Positions 2,565-25,224 of a stretch of 40,777 nt of DNA are shown one piece after another. Position 1 is the first letter of the stretch. Each line of letters opens with the position of its first letter. The stretch is taken from assembly GCA_025458675.1 (NCBI GenBank), contig JALORY010000005.1:1-40777 (forward strand), written 5' to 3'. The notes under the pieces are model-generated. The model worked only from the letters and a program-made list of their open reading frames with translations, did not search any database and was not told the DNA's origin. Position numbers and translations under genes: made by a program. The DNA comes from Gammaproteobacteria bacterium. GTDB taxonomy: Bacteria; Pseudomonadota; Gammaproteobacteria; Chromatiales; Chromatiaceae.

Positions 2565-3770
2565 ATGAAGCGCCGCCAGTTCCTCAAGACCTCGCTCCTT
2601 GCCCCCGCCGCGGTCGCGGTGTCCCCGGCGCCGGCGCGGGCAGCACCCGAGAAGGCTCGCGTCGAGCAGTACCGCGTGCTCGGCCGGACCGGCATGCGGA
2701 TCAGCGATATCTCGTTCGGCGCCGGCCAGGTGCCCTCGGCCTCGCTGGTGCTGCGCGCCGTCGACCAGGGCGTGAACTACTTCGACACGGCGCCCGACTA
2801 CGGACAGAGCGAGGCGATCATCGGCGAGGCGCTCGCCAAGCTCGGGGCGCGGCGCGAGCAGGTCCACGTCGCCTCGAAGTTCTGCCGGCCGGTGGGCTAC
2901 GAGGAAGGGGTGAGCCACCTGCAGCTCGGCGCGACGAAGGCCGACTACAAGTCGGCGGTCGAAGGCAGCCTCAAGCGCCTGCAGACCGCGTACCTCGACG
3001 CGGTCTTCGTCCACGCGATCGGGGGCGTCAACGACTACGAGAAGGAGCGGCGCCGGCTGCTCGACGAGGCGATGCTCTCGGCCTTTCAGGAGCTCAGGCA
3101 GGAGGGCAAGGTGCGCTGGCTCGCGGTCTCGTCCCACGGGCCCTACCACATGGAGCGTCTGCTGACGGACGCGGTCGGCTCCGGGCACTTCGACTACGTC
3201 ATGCCCGCGTTCAACTTCGTCAAGTTCCCCAAGGTGCCGGAGGTGCTCAGACTGGCGAGGGAGCGCAATGTCGGCGTCGTGGCGATGAAGACGCTCGCTG
3301 GCGCGAAGGACGCCGGGGTGCTCGGCCCGCAGGACGTGCCCTTCGAGCAGGCGGCGTTCAAGTGGGTGCTGAAGCACCCGGAGGTCGCGGGGCTCGTCGT
3401 GACGATGAAGCGCGTCAGCGACCTCGACCTGTTCCTGCCGGCTTCGGGGGCGCCGTTCACGGCGGCCGACCAGCGGGTGCTCGACCGCTATGCCGCCGCC
3501 TTCGGCACCGACTACTGCCGCACCGGCTGCAGCGACTGCGAGCCGGCCTGCCCGGCGGGGGTGCCGGTCGCGTCCGTGCTGCGTTTCCAGATGTACTTCA
3601 CCGACTACGGCGACCAGAAGCGGGCGATGGCCGAGTACGCGGCGCTCGAGCGCAAGGCCGACGTCTGCCTCGGCTGCGAACCGTCGCCCTGCAATGCGGC
3701 CTGCCCGCACGGCGTGCCCGTGGCGGCCAAGCTGCACGCCGCGCACCGCGACCTCGGGACGCGGGTCTGA
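2565..3770 (+). CDS. Tat-signal aldo/keto reductase with C-terminal Fe-S-type cysteine clusters
   Basis: MKRRQFLKTSLLAPAAVAV Tat-like signal; AKR motifs GRTGMRISDISFGAG, GVNYFDTAPDYGQSE; C-terminal CRTGCSDCEPACPAGVPV and CLGCEPSPCNAACPHGVPV. Confidence 0.9.
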   Translation: MKRRQFLKTSLLAPAAVAVSPAPARAAPEKARVEQYRVLGRTGMRISDISFGAGQVPSASLVLRAVDQGVNYFDTAPDYGQSEAIIGEALAKLGARREQVHVASKFCRPVGYEEGVSHLQLGATKADYKSAVEGSLKRLQTAYLDAVFVHAIGGVNDYEKERRRLLDEAMLSAFQELRQEGKVRWLAVSSHGPYHMERLLTDAVGSGHFDYVMPAFNFVKFPKVPEVLRLARERNVGVVAMKTLAGAKDAGVLGPQDVPFEQAAFKWVLKHPEVAGLVVTMKRVSDLDLFLPASGAPFTAADQRVLDRYAAAFGTDYCRTGCSDCEPACPAGVPVASVLRFQMYFTDYGDQKRAMAEYAALERKADVCLGCEPSPCNAACPHGVPVAAKLHAAHRDLGTRV

Positions 3771-3773
3771 GCC

Positions 3774-4727
3774 ATGGCGGAACCGCGGCCGGCCCCGGCG
3801 GTCGCACGCGCCGCGCTGCTCGTGTTCCCGCCCCTGCTGGCGGCGGGGCTGTGGTGGCAGGCGCAGCACCACGACGCGGGGCTCGTCGCGTTCGAGGGCG
3901 CGCGCACGGAAGCGCAGGACCCGCTCGTGGCACGCCTGCCCGAGACCCTCGCCGGCCTGCCGAAGGCGGGCGTGCCGCGCCACTATCGGCGCGACAACCT
4001 CTACGAGTACGTGAACGGCCATGCGGAGTACTACCTCTCCGCCGGGTTCGAGGGGCTGCTCGTCGTGGAGTACGGGGCCGACTCCCAGGGCCAGCCGCTG
4101 CTCGTCGCCAACCTCTGGGACATGGGCCGGCCGCTGCACGCGCTGGGCGTGTTGATGGACGAGGCGGGCCCGCAGGCGGCCGCCCGCGTCGCCGACCCGC
4201 CCGTGCTCGAGACGGCCAAGGGGCTCTCGTTCGCGCACGGTGCACGCTACGTGCAGCTGACGCGTTTTGCCGAGGGCGTCGACCTGAACGCCGCCACGTC
4301 GGGGCTGCGTCCGGCGCTCGGCAAGGGGGAGGGCGGCGGCCTGGCCGAGATCGCCTTTCCCGACTTCGGCGCCGCGCTTGCGACCCGCTTCGTCAAGGAG
4401 GGCTACCGCGGCTACGACGCGCTCGCCAACGTGGTCGAACGGCGCTTTGCGCGAGACGGCGGCGAGCTGACGGCCTTCGTGGTCGAGGCGGCGCCGGCGA
4501 AGGTGGCGGAGGTGCAGCGCGCGCTGCTCGCCTTTCTCGCGACGGAGGGCATACCGCACCGCCCGGTGACGGCAGGCGCGGTCACGCTGCACCACGTGGA
4601 GGACCGCTATGAGGGCGAGTGGTTCTTCGCGGCCGGCGGGGGCCGGCTCGTCGGCGCCTTTGCGCCGCCCGACGACGCGCTCGCGCAGGCCGTCGCGGCC
4701 CACTTGCAGGCGGAGGTGAAACCGTGA
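3774..4727 (+). CDS. DUF6599-like protein with N-terminal membrane/signal segment
   Basis: DNLYEYVNGHAEYYLSAGFEGLLVVEYG is typical of the family; follows the AKR stop by 3 bp. Confidence 0.7.
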   Translation: MAEPRPAPAVARAALLVFPPLLAAGLWWQAQHHDAGLVAFEGARTEAQDPLVARLPETLAGLPKAGVPRHYRRDNLYEYVNGHAEYYLSAGFEGLLVVEYGADSQGQPLLVANLWDMGRPLHALGVLMDEAGPQAAARVADPPVLETAKGLSFAHGARYVQLTRFAEGVDLNAATSGLRPALGKGEGGGLAEIAFPDFGAALATRFVKEGYRGYDALANVVERRFARDGGELTAFVVEAAPAKVAEVQRALLAFLATEGIPHRPVTAGAVTLHHVEDRYEGEWFFAAGGGRLVGAFAPPDDALAQAVAAHLQAEVKP

Positions 4728-5743
4728 CCTCGGGCGAACGACCGAAGCGCCGCTCGCAGCACGGCCGGCAGGCGCGGCCGCTCACGCGCCGCGAGTTCCT
4801 GCTCGAGATGGGAGCGCTCGCCGGTGTCGCGGCAGGCGCCGGCGCCCTCGCCTGGCTCGCCTACAGCGACGAGCCGGTGCGCCGCGAGGAAGAGGTCGTG
4901 CACCGGCTGCCGGACTTCCGCGTGCCGGCCTCGACCATGCACCCGCTGCTGGCGGTCGTGCACGGCACACAGCCGGAGGCGATGGTGCGCGAGGCAGTCG
5001 GCCGTCTCGGTGGCATCGGGCGTTTCGTGCAGAAGGGCGAGCGCGTTCTGGTGAAGCCCAACGTCGGCTGGGACCGTCAACCCGAACAGGCGGCGAACAC
5101 CAACCCCGAGGTGGTCGGCGCGGTCGTCGCGCTGTGCCGCGAGGCGGGCGCCTCGACGGTGTGGGTGAGTGACGTCTCGCTCAACGACCCTGCCCGTTCC
5201 TTCGCGCGCTCGGGCATCCGGGCCGCGGCCCAGGGGGCCGGGGCCGAGGTGCGCCTGCCCGGCGCGAACGACTTCTTCGCCACCGACATGGGCGGCAGCC
5301 TGCTGCGCGTGTGGCCGGTGTCGCGCTTCTTCCACGAGGTGGATCGCGTCATCAACGTGCCGATCGTCAAGCACCACTCGCTCTGCGGGTGCACGCTGGC
5401 GATGAAGAACTGGTACGGCGTGCTCGGCGGGCGGCGCAACCAGCTGCACCAGGACATCCACACGTCCATCGTCGACCTCGCGCACGCGGTGCGCCCGACG
5501 CTCACGGTCATGGACGCCATCCGCGTGCTCAAGCGCAACGGACCGACCGGCGGCAGCCTCGACGACGTCGCGATCGAGAACACGATCGTCGCGGGGCTGG
5601 ACGAAGTCGCGATCGATTCCTGGAGCCTGCAACTCCTCGGCCTCACGCCCGACAAGGTGCGCTACCTCGCGATGGGGCAGGAGCGTGGCCTCGGCGTGGT
5701 CGACTGGCGCTCGCTCAACTGGGTCGAGAGCCAGGTGGGCTGA
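4724..5743 (+). CDS. DUF362 domain protein with Tat-like signal
   Basis: GTG start overlapping the previous stop; LTRREFLLEMGALAGVAAGAGAL Tat-like segment; VLVKPNVGWD and VKHHSLCGCTLAMKNWYGVLGG motifs. Confidence 0.88.
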   Translation: MTSGERPKRRSQHGRQARPLTRREFLLEMGALAGVAAGAGALAWLAYSDEPVRREEEVVHRLPDFRVPASTMHPLLAVVHGTQPEAMVREAVGRLGGIGRFVQKGERVLVKPNVGWDRQPEQAANTNPEVVGAVVALCREAGASTVWVSDVSLNDPARSFARSGIRAAAQGAGAEVRLPGANDFFATDMGGSLLRVWPVSRFFHEVDRVINVPIVKHHSLCGCTLAMKNWYGVLGGRRNQLHQDIHTSIVDLAHAVRPTLTVMDAIRVLKRNGPTGGSLDDVAIENTIVAGLDEVAIDSWSLQLLGLTPDKVRYLAMGQERGLGVVDWRSLNWVESQVG

Positions 5744-5747
5744 GCCC

Positions 5748-7274
5748 GTGCGACTGATCCCGCTCAAGCTCCGCACCCTGCGCCGCTGGTGGGCGGTGTT
5801 CTTCCTCGCCCTGTTCCTGTTCCTGCTCGTCGTCACCGACTACCACCGCATGCAGGGCTGGCAGACCTCGCTGCTGCTCGAGCTCGACCCGCTCACCGCG
5901 CTCGGCGGCCTGCTCACCAGCGGCACGGTCTACAAGGGCCTCGCGCTCGCGCTGATCGTCCTCGTGCCGACGCTGGTCTTCGGACGCTTCTTCTGCTCCT
6001 GGGTCTGCCCGCTCGGCATCATGAACCAGATCGCCGGCCGGCTCTTCAGCCGCCGGCGGCCGGCGCAGGAGCAGGAGCAGAACGCCTACCGGCCGGTCTT
6101 CGCGCTCAAGTACTACCTCCTGACCGCGCTGCTCGTCCTCGCCCTGTGGGGGTCGCTGCAGATCGGCCTGCTCGACCCGATCGCGCTCACCGTGCGCTCG
6201 TTCACCGCGGCGGTGCTGCCGGCGCTCGACCGGGTCGGCGCGCCGGTGCACCTGCACCCGCCGGTGTTCTGGGGCGGCGCGCTGATCGCGGGGCTCTTCC
6301 TCGCGATCATCGTGGCGAACCGCTACATGCCGCGCTTCTTCTGCCGCGTGCTCTGCCCCCTCGGCGCGCTGCTCGGCGTGCTGTCGCGGCGCGCCCCGTT
6401 CCGCATCCAGCGGGACCTCGACAAGTGCACCGACTGCAACAAGTGCCTGCGGCACTGCCAGGGGGCCTGCGACCCGCACCGCGAGCTGCGCGTCGCGGAG
6501 TGTCACGTCTGCATGAACTGCCTCGAGGACTGCCCGGAGGACGCGCTGCACTACGGCCTCGCGACGCCGCGCAGCTCCGCGCACCGGCCGATAGACGTCA
6601 GCCGTCGGCGCCTGGTCGAGACGGCGATCGGCACGGCCGTGGCCTTCCCGATGCTGCGCAGCTCGGTCTCCGCGAGCACGGTGCCCACCGCGCCCGTGAT
6701 CCGGCCGCCGGGCTCGCTCGCCGAGGTGGAATTCCTCGGCCGCTGCATCAAGTGTGCGGCCTGCATGCGCGTCTGTCCCACCAACGTGCTGCAGCCCGCG
6801 CTGCTCGAGGCCGGCATCGAGGGGCTGTGGACTCCCGTGCTCGTCAATCGCGTCGGCTGGTGCGAGCAGTACTGCGTGCTCTGCGGCCAGGTGTGCCCGA
6901 CGGGCGCGATCCGCCGCATCACTGTCGCCGAGAAGAGCGGCCAGCCGCCCCACGCGCAGCCGATCCGCCTCGGCACGGCGTTCTACGACCACGGCCGCTG
7001 CCTGCCCTGGGCGATGCACGTGCCCTGCATCGTCTGCGAGGAGATGTGCCCGACTTCGCCCAAGGCGATCTGGTACGAGGTGGCGCAGGTACCCGGCCGC
7101 GACGGGAAGCCGATCGAGCTCAAGCGACCCTATGTCGAGCCGAAGCTCTGCATCGGCTGCGGCATCTGCGAGAACAAGTGTCCGGTCGAGGACCTGCCGG
7201 CGATCCGCGTGAGCTCGGTCGGCGAGACGCGCTCCTCGACCAACCAGATGCTGCTCAAGGGCTCGTCCGGCTGA
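5748..7274 (+). CDS. NapH/NosR-type membrane 4Fe-4S polyferredoxin
   Basis: About four N-terminal TM segments, FFCSWVCPLG and FFCRVLCPLG, then ferredoxin motifs CTDCNKCLRHCQGACDP, CHVCMNCLEDCP, CIKCAACMRVCP, CVLCGQVCP, CIVCEEMCP, CIGCGICENKCP. Confidence 0.92.
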   Translation: MRLIPLKLRTLRRWWAVFFLALFLFLLVVTDYHRMQGWQTSLLLELDPLTALGGLLTSGTVYKGLALALIVLVPTLVFGRFFCSWVCPLGIMNQIAGRLFSRRRPAQEQEQNAYRPVFALKYYLLTALLVLALWGSLQIGLLDPIALTVRSFTAAVLPALDRVGAPVHLHPPVFWGGALIAGLFLAIIVANRYMPRFFCRVLCPLGALLGVLSRRAPFRIQRDLDKCTDCNKCLRHCQGACDPHRELRVAECHVCMNCLEDCPEDALHYGLATPRSSAHRPIDVSRRRLVETAIGTAVAFPMLRSSVSASTVPTAPVIRPPGSLAEVEFLGRCIKCAACMRVCPTNVLQPALLEAGIEGLWTPVLVNRVGWCEQYCVLCGQVCPTGAIRRITVAEKSGQPPHAQPIRLGTAFYDHGRCLPWAMHVPCIVCEEMCPTSPKAIWYEVAQVPGRDGKPIELKRPYVEPKLCIGCGICENKCPVEDLPAIRVSSVGETRSSTNQMLLKGSSG

Positions 7275-7297
7275 CGCGGTATCGGGGGCGACACGAC

Positions 7298-8476
7298 GTG
7301 AGCAAAGGACTGCACCTGCAACTCGACCCGGTGGGCGGCATCGCCGGCGACATGGTGTGCGCGGCGCTGCTCGACGCCTTTCCCGAGCGCCTCGACGGCC
7401 TGCGCGCGACGGTCGCCGCCCTCGAGCCCCCTGCCGGCTGGGCGATCGAGCTCGACGAGGTCGCCGAGCCGATCCGTGGCCACCGGTTCCGCGTCGTCCT
7501 GCCCGGCCGTCCCGACCACCGCCACCGCCACTGGCGGGACATCCGCGCGCTGCTCGAGGAGCGGCTCGACGATGCCGCCGTGCGCGCTCGGGCGCTCGCG
7601 ATCTTTTCCCGCCTCGCCGAGGCGGAGGCGCGCGTGCACGGCGTCGCGGTCGACGCGGTCGAGTTCCACGAGGTCGGCGACTGGGACTCGATCATCGACA
7701 TCGTCGGCGCCGCCCAGCTCCTCGAGGGGCTCGACGTGGTCTCCGCCAGCTGCGGCGCGCTGCCGCTCGGGGGCGGCACCGTGCGTACGGCGCACGGCGA
7801 GCTGCCGGTCCCTGCGCCGGCGACGCTCGCCCTGCTCGCGGGCTTTGCCTGGCAGGACGACGGGATCGGCGGCGAGCGCGTGACACCGACCGGGGCGGCG
7901 ATTCTCGCCGCGCTCGCGCCGTCGCCGGTGATGCCCGCAGGGACGCTGCGCGCGACCGGTGTCGGCTACGGGACGCGTCGGCTCGGCGGCAAGCCCAACT
8001 GCCTGCGCGTGCTCTGCCTCGAGCGCGCCTCCGCGGGGATCGCAACCGAGACGTTGCTCGCGCTCGCGTTCGAGGTCGACGACCAGGCCGCAGAGGACCT
8101 CGCCGACGCGCTCGAACGGCTGCGCGGCGTCGTCGGCGTGGTCGACGTGCAGGTGGTCGCGTCGCTCGGCAAGCGGGGCCGCCTCGTGCAGGGCGTGCGC
8201 GCGCTGCTGCACCCGGCGGCGCTGGGCGGGGCGATCGACCGTTGCCTGCGCGACACCACGACCATCGGCCTGCGCTGGCACGCGGTCGAGCGCGTCGTGC
8301 TCGCGCGTCGCCTCGTCGAGGTCGAGGTCGAGGGGCGGCGGATGCAGGTGAAGGTCGTGGATCGCCCGGGCGGCGCGACCGCGAAGGTCGAGAGCCGCTC
8401 GCTCGCCGACGTGGCGGACGAGGCCGAGCGACGCCGCCTGCGCCGGCTCGCCGAGGCCGCCGCGCTGCGCGGCTGA
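7298..8476 (+). CDS. larC: Nickel-pincer cofactor biosynthesis protein LarC (DUF111)
   Basis: From GTG 7298: LQLDPVGGIAGDMVCAALLDAFPE, EFHEVGDWDSIIDIVGAAQLLEGL, GTVRTAHGELPVPAPATLALL, TPTGAAILAAL, GVGYGTR. Confidence 0.93.
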   Translation: MSKGLHLQLDPVGGIAGDMVCAALLDAFPERLDGLRATVAALEPPAGWAIELDEVAEPIRGHRFRVVLPGRPDHRHRHWRDIRALLEERLDDAAVRARALAIFSRLAEAEARVHGVAVDAVEFHEVGDWDSIIDIVGAAQLLEGLDVVSASCGALPLGGGTVRTAHGELPVPAPATLALLAGFAWQDDGIGGERVTPTGAAILAALAPSPVMPAGTLRATGVGYGTRRLGGKPNCLRVLCLERASAGIATETLLALAFEVDDQAAEDLADALERLRGVVGVVDVQVVASLGKRGRLVQGVRALLHPAALGGAIDRCLRDTTTIGLRWHAVERVVLARRLVEVEVEGRRMQVKVVDRPGGATAKVESRSLADVADEAERRRLRRLAEAAALRG

Positions 8477-11657: not shown

Positions 11658-12470
11658 GTGCGTGCCGAAGCCTCCGCTCCCGTTTCCGTCCTCGCGGCGC
11701 TGCTGCGCGAGCTCGCGCCGGTGCGCGTGGCGGTGAGTGGCGGCGTGGACAGCATGACGCTCGCGCTGGTCGCCGGCCGGGAGCTCGCTGACGCCGTGGA
11801 GGTGGTGCACGCCGCCTCCCCCGCGGTGCCCGCCGAGGCGACCGCCCGGGTGCGCGCCGTCGGGGCCGCCGAGGGCTGGCGGGTGCACGTGATCGACGCG
11901 GGCGAGTTCGCTGACGAGGCCTATCTCGCCAACCCTTACGACCGCTGCTTTCACTGCAAGAGCCACCTCTATCGCGCGATGGCCCGGCTCGGCGGCGGCC
12001 TCCTGCTGTCGGGCGCCAACACCGACGACCTCGACGACTATCGCCCCGGCCTCGCGGCCGCGCGGGACCACGGCGTGCGCCACCCGTTCGTCGAGTGCGG
12101 TATCGACAAGTCCGGGGTGCGGGCCCTCTGCGCGAGCCTCGGCTACCGCGACATCGCGGCGCTGCCCGCGGCGCCCTGCCTGTCCAGCCGGATCGAGACG
12201 GGGCTGCGCATCGAGCCCGGGACGCTGGCGTTCGTGCACGCGGTGGAGTCGGCGCTGCGCGAAGGTCCGGGACCCCTGGTCGTCCGTTGCCGCGTCCGGC
12301 GCGACGGCGTCGTGGTCGAACTGGACGAGGCCGCCCTGCAGTCACTGCGCGCCGGCGACGAAGAGGGGTGGCGGCAGCGGATCGCCGCGCTTGCCGCAGC
12401 CAACGGGCTCGCGCCGGAGATCCGCTTCGAGCCCTACCGCCGGGGGAGTGCGTTTGTCGCAGCCAGCTGA
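11658..12470 (+). CDS. larE: LarE-type ATP-dependent sulfurtransferase (PP-loop)
   Basis: PP-loop AVSGGVDSMTLALVA; NPYDRCFHCKSHLY; GANTDDLDDYRPG; APCLSSRIETG. Confidence 0.92.
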   Translation: MRAEASAPVSVLAALLRELAPVRVAVSGGVDSMTLALVAGRELADAVEVVHAASPAVPAEATARVRAVGAAEGWRVHVIDAGEFADEAYLANPYDRCFHCKSHLYRAMARLGGGLLLSGANTDDLDDYRPGLAAARDHGVRHPFVECGIDKSGVRALCASLGYRDIAALPAAPCLSSRIETGLRIEPGTLAFVHAVESALREGPGPLVVRCRVRRDGVVVELDEAALQSLRAGDEEGWRQRIAALAAANGLAPEIRFEPYRRGSAFVAAS

Positions 12471-13158
12471 ACCGGGATCGCAGGTCGTGATCGACTTCGC
12501 GCGCGGGGCGCGGATCGGCCTCGAGGAGGCCGTCTACTGCGCGCACAAGCATTCGGCGCAGATCGAGCACGTGCTCGCCGAGCACGACGCGCGGGGTCGT
12601 CCCTGTCTGCTGACGCGCCTGTCCCCCCAGCAGCACGCGGCCCTGGACGGTGCCTGGCACGCGCGGCTCGACTACGAGCCGGTCTCGCGCACCGCCTTCT
12701 ACCGCGCCGTGCCGGCGCCCGCGGGACCGCCGCAGGTCGCCATCGTCAGCGGGGGGAGCTCCGACGCCCCCGTGTGCGGCGAGGCGGCGCGCACGCTCGC
12801 GTTCCACGGCGTCGCCAGCCGGCGTTTCGAGGACGTCGGCGTGGCCGGGTTGTGGCGACTGATGGACCGGATCGAGGAGATCCGCGCCCACCCCGTCGTG
12901 ATCGCGGTCGCGGGCATGGAGGGCGCGCTGTTCAGCGTGCTCGGCGGGCTCGTCGGCAGCGTCGTCATCGCCGTGCCGAGCTCGGTCGGCTACGGCGTGG
13001 CCGCGGCCGGCGAGCTGAGCCTCAGGTCCGCGCTCGCGAGCTGCGCCCCGGGCATCGTCACGGTCAACATCGACAACGGCTACGGCGCCGCCTGCGCCGC
13101 CCTGCGGGCGCTCGCCGTGGCCCGCGCGACACTGCCAGTCGGTGCGATCCCCGGCTGA
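12448..13158 (+). CDS. larB: LarB, nickel-pincer cofactor biosynthesis (AIR carboxylase-like)
   Basis: VAIVSGGSSDAPVCGEAARTLAFHG, VIAVAGMEGALFSVLGGLV, VIAVPSSVGYG, CAPGIVTVNIDNGYGAACAAL; overlaps larE by 23 bp (start GTG 12448 or TTG 12454). Confidence 0.93.
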   Translation: MRLSQPAEPGSQVVIDFARGARIGLEEAVYCAHKHSAQIEHVLAEHDARGRPCLLTRLSPQQHAALDGAWHARLDYEPVSRTAFYRAVPAPAGPPQVAIVSGGSSDAPVCGEAARTLAFHGVASRRFEDVGVAGLWRLMDRIEEIRAHPVVIAVAGMEGALFSVLGGLVGSVVIAVPSSVGYGVAAAGELSLRSALASCAPGIVTVNIDNGYGAACAALRALAVARATLPVGAIPG

Positions 13159-13186: not shown

Positions 13187-13527
13187 TCAGAGCGAGCGGC
13201 AGAGGTAGTCCGGCAGGCCCGCGATCCGGCACGCCTGCTCGCAGCCGCCGTCCGGGAAGAGCCGGCCGATCGCCTCGCCGGCCGACGTGCGCTCCCGGCC
13301 CAGCGATTCGCCGAGCGCCCGGTACATGGCGCGGGCCGGCGGCGGGATCAGGTGCCCGCAGTAGAAGTCGCGCAGGAAGCGGATGACTGCCCAGTGGCCG
13401 GCCTGCAGCTGCAGGCCCTCCTCCTCCGCAAGGCCGCGCGCCACCTCGTCGTCCCAGGCCCAGAAATCGGCCATGAACCCCATGTGATTGAAGTCGAGCT
13501 GCCGCCCTCGCACCTGCATCGGGACCA
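13187..13527 (-). CDS. DsrC/TusE-like sulfur-relay protein, divergent C-terminus
   Basis: GLQLQAGHWAVIRFLRDFYCGHLIPPPARAMYRALGE and C-terminal GGCEQACRIAGLPDYLCRSL; ATG 13527 preceded by GAGGAGG. Confidence 0.85.
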
Positions 13528-13776
13528 TCACACTCCTCCTCTGTCGTTGTCGTCGGCCGGCGGCGCCGAACTGCGGACCGCGGCACCACGGCGCTTCGGC
13601 CGGAACCTGCGAACCGTTAGCAGTCCGGGGCCGGGGCGTGAGCCGGTTCACGGTTTCCGGGACGTCGACGAGGTCCGGGCCGAGAGCGGGACCGGCAGAC
13701 TCCCTGGCGGCGGGTGCTATCCAGCAGGGGGGCGGTCGCGGCACAATACCGCCCCTGTCTTCGGGGGATACCGGCC

Positions 13777-14443: not shown

Positions 14444-14953
14444 TCACTTCAGCTGCCCGGCGTCGAGGTCCTTCAGGAGCTGCGGCGTGACGTCGTCGTG
14501 GCGGACCACGCGTGTGCCCTTGTGGTCGCGCAGAAATTCCTCGGCCTCCGCCCGCGTCGCGAAGGGCACCAGCTCGTGGCCCATCGGCCCGAGGGTGTCT
14601 GACCCGATCACGTACCAGGCGTCCCTGGCGGCGATCCGCGTGACGCCGTAGTACTCGGTGACGCCGACGGCGGCGATGTCCTCGGCCCGGTGGCCGGGCG
14701 CCCAGCGCGGCAGGTCCAGCAGGTACTTGTACAGATCCTTGGCGCCATCGAAGTGGTGCGCGTGACCGTCCCGGTAGAGCACGGTCGCGATCCAGTCCGG
14801 GTAGCGCGCCACGAACATGCCGCAGACGGGGCAGGTGTCGCGCTCGCCGGGGCCCGGCAGGTCCAGGGCGAGGGCAGGCCCCGCCAGCGCGAGGCCCAGA
14901 AGAAGGGCGCCCGCCGCGCGGCGGGCGCCCTCGAGCGTCGGGCGCGAGAGCAC
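14444..14953 (-). CDS. NosL-family copper-chaperone-like protein
   Basis: Signal peptide then RDTCPVCGMFVARYPDWIATVLYRDGHAHHFDGAKDLYKYLL, typical NosL. Confidence 0.88.
   Translation of the reverse strand: MLSRPTLEGARRAAGALLLGLALAGPALALDLPGPGERDTCPVCGMFVARYPDWIATVLYRDGHAHHFDGAKDLYKYLLDLPRWAPGHRAEDIAAVGVTEYYGVTRIAARDAWYVIGSDTLGPMGHELVPFATRAEAEEFLRDHKGTRVVRHDDVTPQLLKDLDAGQLK
14905..14930. repeat. 26-bp perfect palindrome GGGCGCCCGCCGCGCGGCGGGCGCCC
   Basis: Left half is the reverse complement of the right half; lies in the signal-peptide codons of the NosL gene, followed on the coding strand by TTCTTCT. Confidence 0.9.
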
Positions 14954-14958
14954 GTGCC

Positions 14959-15585
14959 TCAGCTCTTGCCTTCCATCATCTTGGCGCGCTTCTCCGCCCG
15001 CTTCTTGCGGATCATCAGCGTGTCGTCGGCCATGCTCGCATACGCAGCCTTGAGCGCCGCGTCGAAGTTGCCGAGCTCGCCGCCGTTCTCCTTCTGCGCT
15101 GCCTCGGCCACCGCCTTGCTGCCGAAGGCCTTCTTGCTCCGTGCCGTCATCACGCCGGGCAGCTTGGAGCCGATCAGGTAGGTGGCCTCGTCGACGTTGA
15201 CCAGCGGTTTTATCTCGGCGGCCGCGCCGAAGTCCGCCGCGTAGATCGCCTTCGGCCCGCGGTCGAGGTTGATGGCCAGGCTGATCGCCGCGCAGTGCAG
15301 CGAGCAGGTGCCATCGGCGAGGTCGTCGGCGTACTGCACGAGGTGCCGGCTGTGGTGGTACTGCTTGCGGTCCATGCCGCAGTAGGGGCACTTCGGGTAC
15401 TTCGCGAGCTCGTCCTTGAGCGGCTCCGGGTCGGGCTTGGTCTTGGGCACGAACTGCATCGGCGTGCCGTCGCCCTCGCAGGCGGCGTGCGCGGTGCTGC
15501 CCTGGGTGACCGCGAAGCCGGCCAGGCTGCCGACCGCGAGCAGCTTCAGCGCGTGACGGCGGTCGAGGTGGGTGTTGTCGCTCAT
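14959..15585 (-). CDS. Second NosL-related secreted protein
   Basis: MSDNTHLDRRHALKLLAVGSLAGFAVTQ signal; KCPYCGMDRKQYHHSRHLVQYADDLADGTCSLHCAAISLAI. Confidence 0.82.
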   Translation of the reverse strand: MSDNTHLDRRHALKLLAVGSLAGFAVTQGSTAHAACEGDGTPMQFVPKTKPDPEPLKDELAKYPKCPYCGMDRKQYHHSRHLVQYADDLADGTCSLHCAAISLAINLDRGPKAIYAADFGAAAEIKPLVNVDEATYLIGSKLPGVMTARSKKAFGSKAVAEAAQKENGGELGNFDAALKAAYASMADDTLMIRKKRAEKRAKMMEGKS

Positions 15586-15732
15586 CTCTACTGCTCCTGA
15601 GTGGGGAAACGCGGGTCCGTCGGACCTGGTGCGTCAGATACAACGCGCAGCGGGCCTCCGCCCTTGATGGGGAGCAAGCACGCCGGCTCTGGACGCCAAC
15701 CGGCGGTAGAAATGGGGCATTTCACACAGTCG

Positions 15733-21841: not shown

Positions 21842-22642
21842 GTGATGGACGCCTCGCCTGCCATTCGCACCCTCCCGGCCCGGGCGACGCTCGTCGCGCA
21901 CCGGCTCGACCTGCGCCGGCTGCAGCAGGTCCAGCCGCTCGCGACGACCCCGCTGACGGTCGAAGTCGCAGGGGGGGGTGTGGCGATGCTCTTCCGCTTC
22001 GGGGCCGTCGTGTTCTTCGGCGTCGCACCGATGGAGGAGGCGTCCTTCCTCGAGAAGCTCGCGCCCTTCGCGGTGGAGCCGCTCACCCAGCCCGAGGTCG
22101 AGGCGCTGGATATCGTGGTCGACCCGGGCCGCCCCGAGGGCCTCGACCAGTCCGGCCTCTACCTGCCCGACGCCGACCTGCCGCGCCTGCAGGTGGTCGC
22201 GGACATCCTCGCCAAGAGCGTGCTGCTCGCGGAGCAGGAGGCGCGCGTCGCGAGCGCCTTCGACCGCGTCGAGCCGCTCGCCGAGCAGCTCCAGCGCGGC
22301 GGCCGCGGCACGGGCAGCAACGTCGAGCTGACCCGTCACATCGGCGAGATCCTGCTGATCCAGCACCGAACGGTCGGCCGCGCCGAGGTGGGCGACAAGC
22401 CCGACATCCTCTGGGAGCGCACCGACCTCGAGCGGCTCTTCCAGCGCCTCGACGCCGAGTACGAGCTCGGCGAACGCCGCCAGGCGCTCGAGCAGAAGCT
22501 CGAGCTGATCGGCGACACGGCGCAGACCCTGCTCGACCTGCTGCACAACCGCCGCAGCCTGCGCGTCGAGTGGTACATCGTCATCCTCATCGTGGTCGAG
22601 ATCGTTCTCACGCTGTATGAGCTCTTCGTCCGCGCGCACTAG
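21842..22642 (+). CDS. RMD1/YagE (DUF155) family protein
   Basis: LADILAKSVLLAEQE-type motif (DILAKSVLLAEQEARV), LIQHRTVGRAEVGDKPDILWERTDLERLF, C-terminal TM. Confidence 0.85.
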   Translation: MMDASPAIRTLPARATLVAHRLDLRRLQQVQPLATTPLTVEVAGGGVAMLFRFGAVVFFGVAPMEEASFLEKLAPFAVEPLTQPEVEALDIVVDPGRPEGLDQSGLYLPDADLPRLQVVADILAKSVLLAEQEARVASAFDRVEPLAEQLQRGGRGTGSNVELTRHIGEILLIQHRTVGRAEVGDKPDILWERTDLERLFQRLDAEYELGERRQALEQKLELIGDTAQTLLDLLHNRRSLRVEWYIVILIVVEIVLTLYELFVRAH

Positions 22643-23774
22643 ACCCGCCACGGCGGTGCCGACCGTCCGGCCCGCCGGTCTCGACGACCTCGACGGCCTC
22701 GTCGAGATCGAGAATCGCTGCTTCGACACCGACCGGCTGTCGCGCCGCAACTTCCGCCACCTCCTCACGCGTGGCCGCGCGGCCACGCTGGTCGCAGAGC
22801 GGGCCGGCGCCGTGCTCGGCTACGTGCTGGTGCTGTTCAGCCACGGCACCTCGATGGCCCGCGTCTACTCGATCGCCGTGGACCCCGCCGCCGCCCGGCG
22901 CGGCGTCGGCGCGCTGCTCATGGGCGCGGCGGAGCAGGCCGCGCGCGATCAGGACTGCAGCGAGCTGCGCCTCGAGGTGCGCAAGGACAACGCCGCCGCC
23001 ATCCGGCTGTACGAGTCCCTGGGCTACCGCCGCTTCGGCGTGCTGGCCGACTACTACGAGGACCACGCGGACGCCGTCCGCTACCACCGCTCGCTCGCCC
23101 CGCAGCTGGGCCTCGGCATGGTGCGCGTGCCCTACTACGCGCAGACGCTCGACTTCACCTGCGGGCCCGCGGCGCTGATGATGGCGATGGGAGCGCACGA
23201 GCCGTCGATGCCGCTCGACCGCAAGCTCGAGCTGCGGCTCTGGCGCGAGGCGACGACGATCTTCATGACCTCGGGGCACGGCGGCTGCGGGCCCTACGGC
23301 CTCGCGCTCGCCGCCCACCACCGCGGCTTCGCCGTCGAGGTCTACGTCAACGCGCGCCGCACGCTGCTGTCGGCCACGGTGCGCAGCCGCGAGAAGCGTG
23401 AAGTCATGCGCCTCGTGCAGGAGGACATGATCGAGGAGCTCGACCGGCTCGGCGTGCCGATCCACCACCGCACCGTGCAGCCCGACGAGCTCGAGCGGCT
23501 GTTCGTGGGGGGCGGCATCCCGCTGGTGCTGATCAGCTCCTACCGGATCTACAAGGAGAAGTTCCCGCACTGGGTGGTGATCACCGGCTTCGAGCAGCGC
23601 TACATCTACATGCACGACCCGTTCGTGGACGAGGAGGAGGGCGAGTCGATCGCCGACTGCATCAACATGCCGGTGCTGCGGCGCGAGTTCGCCGCGATGG
23701 CGCGTTTCGGTCGTGCCAACCTGCGCGCGCTGGTGGTGATCTACCCGAAGTGGACGGAGAAGGCCGGTGGCTGA
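22617..23774 (+). CDS. GNAT acetyltransferase fused to C39-like peptidase (DUF3335-type)
   Basis: RimI-like VYSIAVDPAARRGVGALL-type region and RLYESLGYRRFGVLADYY; then DFTCGPAALMMAMGA, FMTSGHGGCGPYGLALAAHHRGF, HWVVITGF. Confidence 0.9.
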   Translation: MSSSSARTRPATAVPTVRPAGLDDLDGLVEIENRCFDTDRLSRRNFRHLLTRGRAATLVAERAGAVLGYVLVLFSHGTSMARVYSIAVDPAAARRGVGALLMGAAEQAARDQDCSELRLEVRKDNAAAIRLYESLGYRRFGVLADYYEDHADAVRYHRSLAPQLGLGMVRVPYYAQTLDFTCGPAALMMAMGAHEPSMPLDRKLELRLWREATTIFMTSGHGGCGPYGLALAAHHRGFAVEVYVNARRTLLSATVRSREKREVMRLVQEDMIEELDRLGVPIHHRTVQPDELERLFVGGGIPLVLISSYRIYKEKFPHWVVITGFEQRYIYMHDPFVDEEEGESIADCINMPVLRREFAAMARFGRANLRALVVIYPKWTEKAGG

Positions 23775-25224
23775 CGTCGTTGTGCTCGTCGAGAAGGCCG
23801 CGGACTGGCGGCCGGAGTTTCCCGCGGTGCGGCTCGCGACCGCGCGGGAGTACCTGACCGAGCCGAGCTTCGCGGACCGCGGCGGCCTCATGGTGATCAA
23901 CCTGTGCCGCAGCCAGCAGTACCAGAGCACCGGCTACTACTGCTCGCTGCTCGGCGAGGCGCGCGGCCACCGCGTGATCCCCTCGGTGCGAACCGGGCAG
24001 GACCTGCGCCGCCCCGCCGCGTTCGCGCCGCGCTACGGGCTCGACGCCCCGGTCCGCCGCTTCCTCCGGGGCCTCGAGAGCGACCGCTACCGGCTCGAGG
24101 TGTACTTCGGCGACACGACCGAGCCCGCGTTCGAGGATCTCGCGCGCGAGGTGTTCGACACCTTCCGCGCGCCGCTCCTGCGCGTCGAGTTCCGGCGCGA
24201 GGGCAACTGGCGCATCCACGCCGTGCACGTCCAGTCGCTGCACCGGCTGCCCGCATCGGGGCGCGAGGCCTTCGGCGCGGCGCTCTCCAAATACCTCGCC
24301 CGGCGCTGGCGCGAGCCGCCGAGCCCCCGGCGCTACCGCTACGACCTCGCGATCCTGCACGACCCCGAGGAGACGATGCCGCCGTCGAACCGGCGCGCGA
24401 TCAAACGCTTCATCGAAGCGGGGCGGAAGGCGGGCATCGACTCCGAGCTCATCACCCGCCGCGACTTCGCGAAGCTCGCCGAGTTCGACGGCCTGTTCAT
24501 CCGGGTCACGACGCAGGTGAACCACTACAGCTACCGGTTCGCGCGGCGGGCGGAGCGCGAGGGCATGGTCGTGATCGACGACCCGCTCTCGATCCTGCGG
24601 TGCAGCAACAAGGTCTACCTGGCCGAGCTGCTGCGCCGCAACCGCATCCCGACCCCGCCCTCGGTGGTCCTCGCCCCGGGCGGGCTGGACGCGGCCGAAC
24701 AGGTCTGCGGCTATCCGGTGGTGCTCAAGGTGCCGGACGGCTCCTTCTCGCGCGGGGTGTTCAAGGCGGAGAGCCCGCAGCAGCTCGAGGCGAGGGCGCG
24801 CGAGATGTTCGAGCACTCGGAGCTCATCCTGGCGCAGGCCTTCACCTACACGGACTTCGACTGGCGCGTCGGCGTCCTCAACCGCGAGCCGCTCTACGTC
24901 TCGCAGTACTTCATGGCGAAGCGGCACTGGCAGATCGTCAAGCACGGTTCCACCGGCTCGCGGCTGGCGGGCGGCTCGACGACGATGCGGGTGGAGGACG
25001 CGCCGCCCGAGGTGGTGAAGACCGCGCTCAAGGCCGCGAACCTGATCGGCGACGGGTTCTACGGCGTCGACCTCAAGCAGTCGCCCGACGGCACCGTGGT
25101 GGTCATCGAGGTGAACGACAACCCGAGCATCGACGCGGGCGTGGAGGACGAGGTGCTGGGCGACCGGCTCTACGAGCGGGTGATGCAGGAGTTCCTGCGC
25201 CGCCTCAGTGATATTTCTCCGTGA
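23767..25224 (+). CDS. RimK-like ATP-grasp ligase with N-terminal RLAN domain
   Basis: MVINLCRSQQYQSTGYYCSLLGEARGHRVIPSV; ATP-grasp region YPVVLKVPDGSFSRGVFKAES...GVDLKQSPDGTVVVIEVNDNPSIDAG. Confidence 0.92.
   Translation: MADVVVLVEKAADWRPEFPAVRLATAREYLTEPSFADRGGLMVINLCRSQQYQSTGYYCSLLGEARGHRVIPSVRTGQDLRRPAAFAPRYGLDAPVRRFLRGLESDRYRLEVYFGDTTEPAFEDLAREVFDTFRAPLLRVEFRREGNWRIHAVHVQSLHRLPASGREAFGAALSKYLARRWREPPSPRRYRYDLAILHDPEETMPPSNRRAIKRFIEAGRKAGIDSELITRRDFAKLAEFDGLFIRVTTQVNHYSYRFARRAEREGMVVIDDPLSILRCSNKVYLAELLRRNRIPTPPSVVLAPGGLDAAEQVCGYPVVLKVPDGSFSRGVFKAESPQQLEARAREMFEHSELILAQAFTYTDFDWRVGVLNREPLYVSQYFMAKRHWQIVKHGSTGSRLAGGSTTMRVEDAPPEVVKTALKAANLIGDGFYGVDLKQSPDGTVVVIEVNDNPSIDAGVEDEVLGDRLYERVMQEFLRRLSDISP

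Follow-up and report, generated by a model that had tools for sequence, protein, structure and literature searches.

The question raised by this locus is why a set of Fe-S redox genes, with products that appear to be directed to the periplasm, should end in larC, and which protein would use the nickel-pincer nucleotide (NPN) cofactor that the lar genes provide. The window, meaning the whole stretch of 40,777 nucleotides that was analyzed here from a Chromatiaceae metagenome-assembled genome (MAG), was searched for gene families, and the distribution, neighborhood, and predicted structure of the operon's products were then compared across genomes.

Gene content of the window

Five plus-strand genes were found in the order AKR-DUF6599-DUF362-polyferredoxin-LarC, with successive gaps of 3, -4, 4, and 23 bp, as the initial annotation had described (3- to 23-bp gaps or overlaps), and the five families that it had named were each upheld by profile matches. 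That annotation had recognized larC but missed larE and larB, which lie 3.2 to 4.7 kb downstream of the larC end. Since these two genes are also in the window, the NPN pathway, larBCE, is complete. The features are as follows.

2565..3770, + strand: predicted Tat-signal aldo/keto reductase (AKR) with C-terminal 2x[4Fe-4S] Cys clusters (family and homologue comparison)
3774..4727, + strand: DUF6599 protein (DUF6599 match, 8.1e-13)
4724..5743, + strand: predicted Tat-signal DUF362 protein with a LarA-like predicted fold, candidate NPN-binding enzyme (H218, K228; H242 a possible Ni ligand) (DUF362 match, 6e-49)
5748..7274, + strand: membrane polyferredoxin with fused NapH-like and NapG-like halves, predicted to connect quinol with periplasmic Fe-S centers (Fer4_5 and other Fer4 domains)
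7298..8476, + strand: LarC, nickel-inserting enzyme of NPN synthesis (Ni_insertion match, 1.2e-91)
11658..12470, + strand: LarE, sulfur-inserting enzyme of NPN synthesis (TIGR00268 match, 5.8e-67)
~12439..13158, + strand: LarB, carboxylating enzyme of NPN synthesis; the start position is approximate and overlaps larE (NF033503 match, 1.9e-70)

The candidate sacrificial Cys of the window LarE is in the motif PCLSSR. Two further regions of the window were noted. A DsrC-family protein and two NosL-domain genes are located near larEB (13187-13744 and 14447-15643 [minus]) and hint at sulfur and copper-enzyme metabolism, and at 22617-25224 a GNAT/C39-like DUF3335 protein adjoins a RimK-like ATP-grasp protein with an RLAN domain, possibly forming a peptide-tag pair.

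The DUF362 protein compared to LarA

The window DUF362 protein matched only PF04015 in Pfam (167 bits, against a gathering score of 24) and not the LarA family, PF09861, and PDB sequence searches with it, as a single sequence or as a profile, gave no meaningful match. Its AlphaFold2 model (pLDDT 94) was then compared to the PDB, and all 19 matches at E <= 1e-3 belonged to the LarA family, the next match being unrelated. TM-scores to the LarA structures were 0.36 to 0.47, with a large rmsd over the whole chain. DUF362 and LarA (DUF2088) have been placed in the same Pfam clan (PMC11770544).

Of the DUF362 proteins collected, 105 were longer than 250 aa, and all of these keep the motif H-x9-KN. 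In three profile comparisons, none strong alone, H218 and K228 of the window protein aligned with His174 and Lys184 of LarA, the latter being the Lys that tethers NPN; for the window subfamily alone, hhalign of the close DUF362 alignment versus LarA was not significant (E of 0.24). H242 was invariant among 74 homologues and is spaced at K+14, versus K+16 for the LarA nickel ligand His200. By alignment order, the window DUF362 protein has no recognizable His at the position of the second catalytic His of LarA (His108), which falls in a low-confidence stretch of the profile alignment. Three sequences of the DUF362-ferredoxin type have the spacing H-10-K-16/17-H, much like that of LarA, and align to His174, Lys184, and His200 at an E of 2.4e-5; one protein of this type matches PF04015 and, slightly below the cut-off, PF09861 as well. 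In some DUF362 proteins the H-K-H region is directly followed by a ferredoxin domain, an arrangement that fits an NPN wired to Fe-S clusters.

The window protein also has an RR pair at residues 22-23 (TRREFLL) preceding a hydrophobic helix, which agrees with the twin-arginine (Tat) signal previously predicted for it. Judging from the model and the aligned residues, the DUF362 protein appears to be the likeliest NPN carrier of the operon. The initial annotation had proposed an NPN-carrying enzyme but left the carrier protein unspecified, and the relation between DUF362 and LarA had gone unnoticed.

Presence and absence of LarA

About 15% of genomes reportedly have larBCE without LarA, and their NPN user has been called unknown and is expected to have a fold distinct from that of LarA (PMC11796402). 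The initial annotation had allowed that a canonical LarA elsewhere might account for NPN use; a PF09861 search of the window's own genome, a MAG that is 72% complete, gave no match. Among the 18 Magnetococcales genomes with the DUF362/polyferredoxin cassette, none had a LarA match and 16 had LarC, and LarA was found in 1 of the 16 Nitrospirota cassette genomes.

These results bear on the possibility that NPN serves an unlinked protein, such as a LarA encoded in a part of the genome that the MAG does not cover, while the cassette aids cofactor synthesis or repair. The incompleteness of the genome would allow this, and many Acidobacteriota with the cassette do have LarA elsewhere in the genome. 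However, LarA was unmatched not only in the 18 Magnetococcales genomes but also in two near-complete relatives, G186 and G204, and in E. coli NPN can be made with LarB, LarE, and LarC alone (PMC11796402), so an exported helper is not needed. We consider this explanation very unlikely.

Two loci were recorded separately. In G204, which is of the same family as the window genome, a Tat-signal DUF362 gene of another branch is divergent beside larC-larE-larB (L009, 11071-12342), and in G093 the order DUF362-NapGH-AKR is followed by one gene and then, where the contig ends, by the first part of a LarA gene (L013, 75-5290). A literature search, with subscription papers and preprints outside its range, returned no paper in which DUF362 is described as an NPN protein, and in the single paper found that has DUF362 and LarC together, DUF362 serves only as a tree outgroup.

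Recurrence of lar linkage

A contig scan queried with four DUF362 sequences yielded 80 loci in several phyla. The adjacency of larC to the cassette, which might have been unique to the window genome, recurs in other genomes. Lar-adjacent DUF362/polyferredoxin cassettes were found in Gammaproteobacteria, Magnetococcales, and Acidobacteriota, and both the gene orders and the larC lineages vary. A genome of the same family has DUF362-NapGH-LarC, and G068, a less closely related gammaproteobacterium, carries a NapGH-like gene immediately upstream of LarC and LarE. Three Magnetococcales loci (L015, L016, and L022) have the order AKR-DUF6599-DUF362-NapGH-LarC-LarB-LarE. Eight acidobacterial loci have LarE-LarC-LarB-NapGH ahead of two or three DUF362 paralogues, and in two of the eight (L060 and L084) a DUF6599 gene lies in between. 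Another Tat-signal protein is encoded downstream of the DUF362 genes in these last two operons.

The window DUF362 and the Magnetococcales DUF362 proteins are mostly 60 to 65% identical, whereas the LarC tree, with full support, separates the window LarC and the proteobacterial sequences grouped with it from the Magnetococcales LarC. Inheritance of the cluster as a single block was rejected because the LarC and DUF362 relationships disagree. On the DUF362 tree, lar linkage must have changed a minimum of three times along well-supported branches, and taken with the conflicting relationships, this indicates that lar linkage was made, or remade, on more than one occasion.

Co-occurrence of the cassette and LarC

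LarC was found in 70 of the 79 cassette genomes (44/50 plus 26/29); the 9 in which the search did not find it are mostly MAGs. Among 185 Gammaproteobacteria, LarC was present in 6 and the window-type DUF362 in 3, all within the LarC set (Fisher p of 2e-5, or 6e-4 without the window's own genome, with kinship ignored). When any PF04015 match was counted, 4 of 5 were in the LarC set, the match in G035 being weak and apparently LarA-like. Similarly, 44 of the 45 Nitrospirota genomes with DUF362 had LarC, versus 64 of the 103 without it (148 genomes in all; p of 8e-7, kinship ignored).

The linkage and co-occurrence data could also be read to mean that the cassette works without NPN, as an ordinary Fe-S/quinol redox module, with LarC nearby through anoxic co-expression or shared cluster ancestry. 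Most cassette loci are without nearby lar genes (the lar genes lie within about 9 kb in only 7 of the 29 loci with wide flanks), and in some cases DUF362 is present although no LarC was detected. Bacteroides ihuae has PF04015 with no LarC found, and the DUF362 family can thus exist without larBCE; in Parabacteroides distasonis, a DUF362-NapGH pair keeps the H and K with zero lar genes in the stretch shown. Set against this are the linkage of larC genes of different lineages in different orders, the frequency of LarC among cassette genomes, and the LarA-like predicted fold of DUF362, and we regard a module without NPN as unlikely. Such DUF362 proteins either use another cofactor or show that the H/K motif is unspecific for NPN. 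We therefore place NPN use by the window branch at slightly better than even, and the wider claim lower.

The AKR, DUF6599, and polyferredoxin proteins

The window AKR gave an Aldo_ket_red match of 2.4e-33 and a weak Fer4 match. As the initial annotation had stated, it carries a putative Tat signal (RR at residues 3-4, KRRQFLK; its Pfam TAT_signal score was slightly below the cut-off) and two Cys clusters, the eight C-terminal Cys forming two quartets (C318/322/325/329 and C368/371/376/380). Residues D74, Y79, K105, and H150, the catalytic tetrad by position, were invariant in 19 homologues. The DUF6599 protein has one N-terminal membrane helix and zero Cys, and a fold search with it matched nothing at E <= 1e-3. 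The polyferredoxin joins NapH-like and NapG-like halves in one chain with an internal SRRRLVETAIGTAVAFP segment and 29 Cys; its domain order resembles NapH plus NapG, and it scored below the NCBIfam equivalog cut-offs for NapG and NapH (89 bits versus 269 and 69 versus 234).

The main rival to DUF362 as the NPN carrier is the AKR itself. An AKR exported by Tat could be the NPN enzyme, with NPN replacing NAD(P)H in the nucleotide site and DUF362 acting as an accessory; soluble NAD(P)H is not generally expected in the periplasm. On a plasmid of Burkholderia sp. PAMC 26561 (L235, 6013-11098), larC-larE-larB are followed by an overlapping Tat-signal AKR gene and then a nickel transporter gene, and the annotation of the displayed stretch includes neither LarA nor DUF362; an AKR 90% identical to this one is present in Paraburkholderia PREW-6R. 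Conversely, acidobacterial lar operons have DUF362 and NapGH while the AKR is missing, making it a non-constant partner; the AKR fold is a TIM barrel, unlike LarA; and the Burkholderia AKR, which shares only 29% identity with the window AKR, is without the C-terminal Fe-S Cys. We judge it quite unlikely that the AKR carries NPN in the window operon. The Burkholderia protein is a second possible non-LarA NPN user, and the occurrence of larCEB with a Tat-AKR in place of DUF362 counts against the generality of the DUF362 reading.

Proposed mechanism

We favor, with modest confidence, the view that this branch of DUF362 uses NPN and that the operon specifies an exported redox enzyme dependent on that cofactor, together with its electron route. 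LarB, LarE, and LarC would make NPN in the cytoplasm, where the DUF362 protein, a putative distant relative of LarA, would take it up, probably covalently via K228. H218 would stand in place of the LarA catalytic His174, and a downstream His would be the Ni ligand. The NPN-loaded protein would fold and then be exported by Tat. In the periplasm, NPN would accept or donate a hydride, the substrate perhaps being 2-hydroxyacid-like or another alcohol or ketone, and the NPN site would exchange electrons with the quinone pool via the NapGH polyferredoxin; the Fe-S clusters of the AKR may also take part in this route.

The initial annotation had explained the grouping by an exported NPN enzyme served by the polyferredoxin. 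Linkage in three lineages, co-occurrence with LarC, the lack of a LarA match here and in the Magnetococcales, and the LarA-fold similarity of DUF362 are in favor of this proposal; the AKR is not always a member of the set.

A broader and more tentative proposal, which we hold to be somewhat doubtful, is that DUF362 is a second, hitherto unrecognized branch of NPN enzymes that perform net redox chemistry, with the hydride site wired to Fe-S clusters by a fused ferredoxin in some members and by NapGH in the Tat-exported branch. DUF362 might then be the missing user in many genomes that lack larA, those of cyanobacteria and haloarchaea possibly among them. Members of the LarA family are the only known NPN users, and because DUF362 is predicted to share their fold, its candidacy as the missing user can be put to the test; the operon names both a candidate family and the residues predicted to hold the cofactor. 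If the proposal is true, NPN extends from isomerases with hidden redox steps to exported enzymes coupled to electron transfer. Since DUF362 is widespread and its function unknown, a function for one branch would have wide reach.

Comparison with known systems

The closest known systems each share part of this arrangement. The LarA superfamily (DUF2088/PF09861) has the NPN biosynthesis genes LarB, LarE, and LarC in common with the window system. The two proteins differ in family (PF09861 versus PF04015) and length (about 425 versus about 340 aa), and the window protein has a predicted Tat signal; its operon, unlike that of LarA, includes a polyferredoxin and an Fe-S AKR. LarA returns its hydride at once, whereas the window DUF362 protein is proposed to trade electrons with the quinone pool. 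Within PF04015, the window protein is a full-length member with the invariant H and K-N. DUF362-ferredoxin proteins have their own ferredoxin domain, while the window DUF362 is predicted to be exported and has Fe-S centers on partner proteins. The window polyferredoxin resembles the NapGH/MauMN quinol dehydrogenase ferredoxins in having a NapH-like membrane half, a NapG-like Fe-S half, and a predicted periplasmic-enzyme partner, but its halves are fused and its operon is without a nitrate reductase or methylamine dehydrogenase gene. Finally, the window system has larBCE without a detected LarA in common with the larA-less NPN systems (PMC11796402), and its candidate NPN user is predicted to be LarA-like in fold rather than distinct from LarA.
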